33,248 nt of DNA from Candidatus Eiseniibacteriota bacterium (GTDB taxonomy: Bacteria; Eisenbacteria; RBG-16-71-46; SZUA-252): the NCBI GenBank assembly GCA_005893165.1, contig VBOR01000027.1:1-33248 (forward strand). The letters run 5' to 3'. Every line of letters begins with the position of its first letter. Within the stretch, counting starts at the first letter, position 1. Positions 16,938 to 18,155 of this stretch are shown here, piece by piece. The notes beneath the pieces were generated by a model, which saw only the letters and a list, made by a program, of their open reading frames with translations, made no database searches and was not told the DNA's origin. Both the position numbers and the translations under genes were made by a program.

Positions 16938-17118
16938 CCCGCCGCGAAGCAGGCGGCGCGATCGCCGCGAATCTGTGGCGCTGATGTTCGCAGGACCCAA
17001 GACAATTGACCTCGATCGCCGGGCCCCGGAGGCATTCGACCTCCGGCCCATCGAGCGCCTCCGGGCGCATCGGGCCCGATTGACGAAGTCGTCAATCGGC
17101 CTTGGGTTTTTCGTTTTT
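16938..17118 (+). promoter_or_regulatory. Structured leader upstream of prs, possible attenuator
   Basis: The 247 bases between tRNA-Gln and prs hold several perfect inverted repeats. CGCCGC (16940-16945) and CGCCGC (16963-16968) can each pair with GCGGCG (16953-16958). CCGGAGG (17026-17032) can pair with CCTCCGG at 17040-17046 or at 17058-17064. GCGCC-TCCG-GGCGC (17055-17068) is a hairpin with a UNCG-type tetraloop. ATCGGGCCCGAT (17069-17080) is a 12-base palindrome. Competing pairings followed by a terminator-like stem suggest transcription attenuation. No known riboswitch consensus was recognised. Confidence 0.45.
17076..17118 (+). terminator. Terminator-like hairpin and T tracts before prs
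   Basis: CCGATTGACGA (17076-17086) and TCGTCAATCGG (17089-17099) form a perfect 11-bp stem. T5 tracts follow at 17107-17111 and 17114-17118. The first T tract begins 7 bases after the stem, farther than in a strong intrinsic terminator, so read-through or regulated termination is likely. It would separate the spoVG/tRNA-Gln transcript from prs. Confidence 0.5.
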
Positions 17119-17141
17119 GTGGGGATTCCCGGGAGGAAACG

Positions 17142-18155
17142 ATGACGGTGAAACTTGCAACGGATCGGCGGCTCGCCGCGGCCCCGGGACACGAATCGGA
17201 GTCGATACGGAAGCGCGACTCGCAGACGAGGCTCCGGCTCTTCACGGGGAACGCCAACCGGCCGCTCGCCGAGAAGATCTGCGAGTACCTCGGGACCGAG
17301 CTCGGGGACGCGACGGTGAGTCAGTTCGCGGACGGCGAGACGTTCGTGAAGATCAACGAGAACGTCCGCGGCGCGGACCTCTTCGTGTTCCAGCCGACGT
17401 TCGCCCCGGCGACGAATCTCATGGAGCTTCTCGTGATGGTCGATGCCGCGCGGAGGGCCTCGGCCGGAAGGGTGACGGCGGTCGTTCCGTACTTCGGCTA
17501 TCAGCGGCAGGACCGGAAGGACCAGCCGCGCGTGCCGATCACGGCGAAGCTGGTGGCGAACATGATCACCACCGCGGGCACCGACCGGGTGATGACGATG
17601 GATCTGCATTCGGCGCAGATCCAGGGGTTCTTCGACATCCCCTTCGACCATCTGTACGCGGCGCCGGTGCTCGTCGATTACTGGATGCATCTCAAGATTC
17701 CGAATCTGATCGCGGTGGCGCCCGACATCGGGAGCGTGAAGATGGCGCGCGCCTACGCGAAGCGGCTCAGTGTCGGGCTGGCGATCGTGGACAAGCGCCG
17801 CCCGCGCCCCGACGCCGTGGAGATGATGAACGTGATCGGCGAGGTGGATGGAAAGAACGTGGTGATCTTCGACGACGTCGTGAGCACGGGATCCACCCTG
17901 GTCGAGGCGGCCGAGGCCCTGAAGCGGGCCGGCGCGCGCGACATCTACGCGGCCTGCACGCACGCCGTGCTGTGCGGGGACGCGGTCGAGCGCATCGGCC
18001 GCTCCGCGGTGCGCGAGCTGATCGTGACGGACAGCATCCCGCACGATCCCAAGAGGCTGGGTCCCAGCATCAAAGTGCTCTCTGTCGCGGGGCTTCTGGG
18101 TGAAGCGATCCGCCGCATCCACGACGAGGAGTCACTCAGCTCGCTGTTCATTTAA
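17142..18155 (+). CDS. prs: Ribose-phosphate pyrophosphokinase (PRPP synthase)
   Basis: Prs transfers pyrophosphate from ATP to ribose 5-phosphate, making PRPP for purines, pyrimidines, NAD, His and Trp. The 337-residue protein has the FADGE element, the PYFGYQRQDRK flexible loop, the MDLHSAQIQGFF motif, and the PRPP-binding DDVVSTGST (244-252). About 27 residues precede the usual N terminus (LRLFTGNANRPLA); a GGGAGGAAA site just before the ATG supports the longer start. It is preceded by a structured leader and followed by rplY, a frequent pairing. Confidence 0.97.
   Translation: MTVKLATDRRLAAAPGHESESIRKRDSQTRLRLFTGNANRPLAEKICEYLGTELGDATVSQFADGETFVKINENVRGADLFVFQPTFAPATNLMELLVMVDAARRASAGRVTAVVPYFGYQRQDRKDQPRVPITAKLVANMITTAGTDRVMTMDLHSAQIQGFFDIPFDHLYAAPVLVDYWMHLKIPNLIAVAPDIGSVKMARAYAKRLSVGLAIVDKRRPRPDAVEMMNVIGEVDGKNVVIFDDVVSTGSTLVEAAEALKRAGARDIYAACTHAVLCGDAVERIGRSAVRELIVTDSIPHDPKRLGPSIKVLSVAGLLGEAIRRIHDEESLSSLFI

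Follow-up and report, generated by a model that had tools for sequence, protein, structure and literature searches.

The 33,248-nt stretch of DNA analyzed here (hereafter, the window), a single contig of the draft genome of Candidatus Eiseniibacteriota bacterium, encompasses the prs gene, which encodes phosphoribosyl pyrophosphate (PRPP) synthase and is preceded by ispE, spoVG and a tRNA-Gln gene (Table 1). The next genes after prs are rplY and pth, and rpsF follows close downstream of pth on the same strand as prs. The tRNA-Gln gene is located ahead of prs in the whole family to which this genome belongs and in most of the class (41 of the 43 class leaders, the exceptions within the stretch examined being L108 and L109). 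The 43 leaders come from a set of 47 class genomes, in three of which (G011, G015 and G018) there was no prs match at the cut-off; a fourth genome, G027, which gave only a partial prs match, was left out. The prs product of the family contains an N-terminal extension of approximately 24 residues that starts with MTVKLATDRR (positions 17142-17220 of the window) and is retained among the members, and most of the PRPP synthase matches in the other families of the class start at residues 16 to 31 of the query. Elsewhere in the window, positions 1107-1206 encode an ordinary bacterial small SRP RNA beside two tRNA-Ser genes and one tRNA-Ala gene. In one family member (G007), a weak tRNA-like match on the reverse strand (L040:313-379, 26.5 bits, below the Rfam cut-off) lies directly upstream of the tRNA-Gln gene.

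Table 1. Features of the tRNA-Gln–prs region of the window
Feature	Start	End	Strand	Basis or remark
tRNA-Gln (TTG)	16820	16894	+	adjoins the prs leader on its 5' side
TAGACT, -10-like hexamer of a putative prs promoter	16927	16932	+	inferred; no convincing -35 element
5' hairpin of the leader	16941	16957	+	counterparts in relatives by position, not by sequence; weak against shuffles
Conserved structured RNA core	16991	17111	+	covariance-model match 16993-17113, 129 bits
P1, 5' strand of closing stem, GACCCAAG	16994	17001	+	outer P1, 36/36 cells paired
Small hairpin GAY-NUCG-RUC in joining strand	17008	17017	+	recurs in minimum-energy folds; weak reading
P2 hairpin, GGGCC-cc-GGAGG / CCUCC-GGYCC	17021	17049	+	90/90 cells paired
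Alternative helix, 17021-17025 (GGGCC) with 17073-17077 (GGCCC)	17021	17077	+	invariant in 9/9
P3 hairpin, UCGAGCGCC / GGCGY-n-UCG	17051	17072	+	98.6% of cells paired; one bulge
P4 hairpin, GGCCCGAUUGACG / CGUCAAUCGGYC	17073	17101	+	72/72 upper cells paired
P1, 3' strand (UUGGGUU)	17102	17108	+	T tract immediately after
T tract, TTTTTCGTTTTT	17107	17118	+	6-10 T in the 12 nt after P1 in 9/9 genomes
GGAGG, prs ribosome-binding site	17132	17136	+	sequence
prs, ribose-phosphate diphosphokinase (PRPP synthase)	17142	18155	+	NCBIfam
rplY/ctc, ribosomal protein L25	18189	18926	+	next after prs
pth, aminoacyl-tRNA hydrolase	18943	19515	+	3' of rplY

The first-pass annotation of the window marked the stretch 16938-17141 as a prs leader with mutually exclusive hairpins and a terminator-like stem. 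The repeats on which this reading was based are present in the window, namely GCGGCG (16953-16958) with CGCCGC at 16940-16945 and 16963-16968, CCGGAGG (17026-17032) with CCTCCGG at 17040-17046 and 17058-17064, and the 12-base palindrome ATCGGGCCCGAT at 17069-17080. The second CGCCGC and the second CCTCCGG, that is, the competing partners, are private to this genome and absent in all eight relatives. The former falls within about 25 extra nt unique to this genome, and the latter is built from a TCCG hairpin loop, the corresponding loops of the eight relatives being GAAA, GGAA, CAT, GCGC or CCAC. The terminator-like stem exists (17076-17099, with a 4-nt loop), although it consists of 10 bp rather than the claimed 11 and, taken alone, ends several nucleotides short of the T-rich stretch. 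As a whole, the stretch 16938-17141 shows only a modest gain in folding stability over dinucleotide shuffles (z = -2.07; 6 of 200 equally good) and contains a single terminator-like pattern compared with a shuffle mean of 1.2, so the caution that G+C-rich sequence makes chance pairing more likely was justified at this scale. The retention of the 5' hairpin at the start of the stretch among the relatives is suggestive only; in one family member (G005), the 5' hairpin of that genome was the best-scoring site in a terminator-site scan, ahead of the element described below.

The conserved feature is narrower than the stretch originally marked and spans approximately positions 16991-17118, the T tract included. 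A DNA search of the family located the portion between approximately 16994 and the T tract directly upstream of prs in all nine genomes, the source genome among them, with a nearly fixed gap of 29 to 44 nt between the end of the element and the prs ATG. The nine loci were aligned using MAFFT and then by hand, with each row checked against its locus. The mean identity over the 36 sequence pairs is 77% within the element, compared with 54% at the fourfold-degenerate sites of prs, 52% in the flank extending back to tRNA-Gln and 61% in the short flank that leads to the ATG. The core of the window (16991-17111) has a folding z-score of -4.59, with none of 300 shuffles as good, and the cores of the nine members range from -3.58 to -5.38, with no score as low in any of the 300 shuffles per genome. 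The possibility that these are functionless chance hairpins in G+C-rich DNA, which would be in keeping with the modest folding signal of the wider stretch and the unconserved competing partners, is hardly credible for the core in the face of its conservation, folding z-scores and covariation in nine of nine genomes, and we consider the element to be almost certainly a functional RNA.

The consensus structure consists of a closing stem P1 (GACCCAA/UUGGGU) that encloses three hairpins, P2, P3 and P4. In alignment A3, 98.7% of the 306 cells pair, a fraction attained by none of 500 shuffles, and in the slid controls only 24-51% of the cells do so. Double changes occur at 4 of the 34 pairs, which was reached by 2 of 500 shuffles; the covariation test is based on nine sequences from a single family and accordingly has low power, most pairs of P2 and P3 being invariant. 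Three of the pairs with double changes belong to P4, the helix that includes the terminator stem of the first-pass annotation, and the outermost pair of P1 varies on both sides (GC, AU or GU). Thus, compensatory change among relatives, the test by which the original proposal was to be judged, came out in favor of a structured leader with a terminator-like stem ahead of prs, in line with the conservation in the nine family genomes and the folding scores. One-sided changes in the helices, such as GC to GU and AU to GU in P2, nearly all yield G-U or U-G on the plus strand, which identifies this strand as the RNA.

Departures from pairing are few: a C-C in P3 of G008, a G-G in P4 in two genomes (G001 and G002), for which the neighboring register pairs without a bulge, and a P1 cell that reflects a single column misplaced in A3 for the genus of the window and corrected in the hand alignment. 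In P3, for which the consensus is CGAGCGCC/GGCGY-n-UCG, the outer pairs are invariant when the bulge is placed as in the folds. The inner extension of P1 pairs in 42 of 48 cells, with an A-C mismatch in the genus of the window, and an extension of CUCGAU with AUCGAG (50 of 54 cells), which excludes the outer P3 pairs, is a possible real pairing. A candidate antiterminator formed by AUUGAC (17005-17010) and GUCAAU of the P4 3' strand was rejected, as it pairs in only 46 of 54 cells and is broken in several genomes; pairing of the P2 CCUCC with the prs ribosome-binding site was dismissed as well, with no pair above an average probability of 0.3 in the full leader. The hairpin loops are free to vary, and the sequence of the stems and the junction is near-fixed, beyond what simple pairing would require.

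The nine family sequences were used to build a covariance model (R1), which recovered, at E ≤ 0.001, nine of the 47 class genomes, all of them family members, and none of the 38 others; the phylum search covered the same 47 genomes. At E ≤ 1, a further 18 genomes gave weaker matches, with scores of 23.2 bits or less, compared with at least 103.8 bits for family members. With the filters off, R1 scores for 34 class loci did not exceed 19.6 bits, and several such matches were outside the leader. A second R1 match in the source genome itself (28.6 bits, G000:C40) reads as coding sequence and was taken as chance. A strict pattern scan of 84,980 species, with one genome per species, identified four places, all in family members; one match in a viral contig does not fit the covariance model. 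Given that the tRNA-Gln-prs arrangement is class-wide and that simple hairpins occur between these genes in some other families, the gene order appears to be old, and the element would be either a family-level addition or a counterpart that has diverged elsewhere past recognition.

Searches against known RNA families did not produce an assignment. For the window leader and the nine leader loci, Rfam at E ≤ 10 yielded nothing except tRNA and unrelated weak matches, and the comparison with known riboswitch models that had been suggested at the outset came out negative, as no Rfam riboswitch family matched at this threshold. The comparison with the ykkC type rests on that scan and on a search with the Guanidine-I model (RF00442), which detected no match in any of the nine genomes and was positive in the B. 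subtilis control. Among open PMC papers, titles and abstract openings contained no description of a structured RNA ahead of prs, and no riboswitch literature on Eisenbacteria was found. The 6S RNA was considered as well, given that the distance from the promoter-like to the terminator-like end of the leader is close to that expected of such an RNA. Unlike 6S RNA, the prs element is branched; the RF00013 match is located elsewhere in eight of the nine genomes, and there is none at the prs leader. A leader-peptide attenuator was likewise rejected: there is no conserved open reading frame, start codons and frames differ among the nine leaders, and loop lengths differ by amounts not divisible by 3.

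The competing pairings named in the first-pass annotation are not conserved, but the notion of mutually exclusive pairing survives in another form. The GGGCC strand at 17021-17025 can pair either with GGCCC at 17045-17049, as in P2, or with GGCCC at 17073-17077, at the base of P4, so that the alternative helix is mutually exclusive with the bases of both hairpins. In the second arrangement, GGGCC and GGCCC pair in 45 of 45 cells, and the CC bulge of P2 becomes paired too, which extends the helix to CCGGAGG/CCUCCGG (63 of 63 cells). A strand with two partners would account for the lack of variation in the bulge and in each partner strand. This invariance means that the pairs of the alternative helix do not count as evidence of covariation, and GGGCCC being self-complementary, two copies of this motif pair by default. 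In transcripts cut before the 3' strand of P4, the second arrangement is favored in all nine genomes, with an average pair probability of 0.73. Over the whole element, forced folds of the two arrangements are 0.4 to 0.7 kcal/mol apart in five of the nine genomes (the four of the genus of the window and G001); in G006, G007 and G008 the second arrangement has an advantage of 3.4 to 6.6 kcal/mol, and in G002 a disadvantage of 2.9 kcal/mol. Forcing the second fold rearranges P4 in G006 and G001. On these modeled energies, a conformational switch in the prs leader is plausible. Because P1 can still form in either arrangement, a conserved fold for read-through was not identified.

The features expected of an attenuator are observed in all nine genomes: a conserved structured leader directly upstream of a single gene, and a terminator-like stem, P1, followed by a U tract, which is poorest in G008 (6 T in 12). 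The distance from the end of the T tract to the prs start codon is 23 nt in the window. Hexamers of the TAG type similar to that listed in Table 1 are located 36 to 40 nt upstream of the element in six of the nine genomes and 64 nt upstream in the window; two of the nine genomes have no hexamer at the shared place, and no match to a consensus sigma-70 promoter was found in the leader. The position of these hexamers is suggestive of a promoter located after tRNA-Gln and ahead of the element. We judged the gap between the T tract and prs to be too short for a promoter together with a ribosome-binding site, and hence prs is probably expressed by read-through of the element. It is likely that the element acts via transcription termination.

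These considerations bear on the possibility that the element is an independent gene for a trans-acting small RNA that merely adjoins prs. Such a gene, transcribed from a promoter of its own up to its own terminator, would account for the promoter-like and terminator-like ends approximately 180 nt apart, and the synteny of a single-copy locus could equally hold its position. Nevertheless, with no promoter space downstream of the terminator, prs must be reached by read-through, and the near-constant gap of 29 to 44 nt to the prs ATG is at odds with mere adjacency, which makes a separate small RNA quite improbable. Somewhat less remote, but unlikely all the same, is a constitutive terminator of tRNA-Gln that lets a fixed share of transcripts continue into prs and has become more elaborate in this family without being regulated. 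Terminator-like hairpins between tRNA-Gln and prs are indeed present in families such as f7, f9 and f3, and 10 of 32 non-family leaders contain a terminator-like match, one of which overlaps the prs start. A simple hairpin would suffice for this purpose, whereas the element is an RNA of approximately 120 nt with 77% identity and an invariant junction and stem sequence; furthermore, a promoter-like hexamer of the TAG type lies downstream of the tRNA in most family members.

The reading that we favor on balance, with moderate confidence, is an undescribed cis-acting RNA that attenuates the prs operon and does so conditionally. In the model that we propose, a TAG-type promoter in the tRNA-Gln–prs interval would initiate transcription, probably at about position 16939. 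The nascent leader would fold with P1, the last helix to form, closing around P2, P3 and P4, and the closed P1 running into the T tract would constitute an intrinsic terminator about 23 nt ahead of the prs start codon; prs would be made only when the polymerase reads through. The GGGCC strand (17021-17025) would be shared by two arrangements, pairing within P2 in one and with the P4 base in the other, and the signal that chooses between them, or that stabilizes P1, would set the expression of prs. The controlled operon is predicted to comprise prs, rplY and pth and probably extends to rpsF. The signal might be a metabolite or a protein; feedback by nucleotides or PRPP is the guess that suggests itself.

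The protein alternative is an autoregulatory site for a product of the operon itself (L25, S6 or PRPP synthase), with the bound protein stabilizing P1 and thereby stopping the transcript. The gene content, with rplY and pth after prs and rpsF close behind on the same strand, is compatible with such a site, and the higher conservation of stems over loops suits an aptamer no better than a protein or alternative pairing. The presence of rplY in the operon is also reminiscent of ribosomal protein leaders, such as that of L25; unlike in those systems, the first gene is prs rather than rplY, and no Rfam ribosomal protein leader matches at E ≤ 10. Protein L25 binds the loop E site of 5S rRNA, and we noticed no resemblance to that site in the leader. 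Altogether, we regard an operon-protein site as a minority possibility, slightly more credible than an unregulated terminator.

Conditional attenuation as proposed here shares with general attenuators and OFF riboswitches the location in a leader, the multi-helix junction, the U tract and the short gap to the start codon; it differs in that the closing stem abuts the U tract, in place of a separate downstream terminator, and no antiterminator was identified in the prs leader. A close parallel is the PRPP riboswitch (ykkC subtype 2b), the published examples of which are located ahead of purine genes in Firmicutes and switch expression on; the word prs is absent from the main text of the paper that describes it (PMC5912903). 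In the crystal structure, a closing helix P0 is described as creating a four-way junction (PMC6031431). The two RNAs share the connection with PRPP metabolism, the four-way junction formed by a closing helix and, for the prs leader as proposed, the use of an intrinsic terminator (PMC5912903, PMC6031431). In the prs leader, the closing stem itself seems to be the terminator. The resemblance is one of layout only.

A small-molecule ligand for the prs leader is possible but is not what we would expect, and the case for PRPP or a purine in that role is based on the identity of the gene alone. Only tentatively can we put forward a new riboswitch class, so far confined to one family of Eisenbacteria, that would sense PRPP or a purine nucleotide and shut off prs, with the closing stem acting as the terminator and the GGGCC strand swapping partners. 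PRPP feeds the synthesis of purines, pyrimidines, NAD, histidine and tryptophan. If the proposal holds, the PRPP synthase gene would be preceded by an RNA of its own, a direct feedback point at the entry to nucleotide synthesis. The conserved model is a compact RNA of approximately 120 nt that could be synthesized and assayed with a small set of ligands and operon proteins.

In family f11 of the class, the space between a TAGTCT-type promoter and tRNA-Gln is occupied by a different leader (L047:1220-1345, L055:1224-1349, L058:1214-1339 and similar loci). It consists, in order, of GGCCAGTAGCCATCACCCCGG, a variable hairpin and CGGACCGTGACGGAAAYCCCGTTCTGTTGG, and is almost invariant in the f11 leaders aligned. 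This leader matched no Rfam family at the gathering score, and a search of five more f11 loci at E ≤ 10 gave no meaningful match; possibly, the tRNA-Gln/prs unit has here a further undescribed leader RNA. In L048 and L049 (f7), L105 (f9) and L107 (f3), the interval from tRNA-Gln to prs contains simple terminator-like hairpins, the one in L105 only approximately 12 nt from the apparent start of prs, so that read-through into this gene may occur widely in the class. In f7, the stems (in L049, GTGACCC/GGGTCAC followed by TTTTTTGTTTG) resemble a bare P1.
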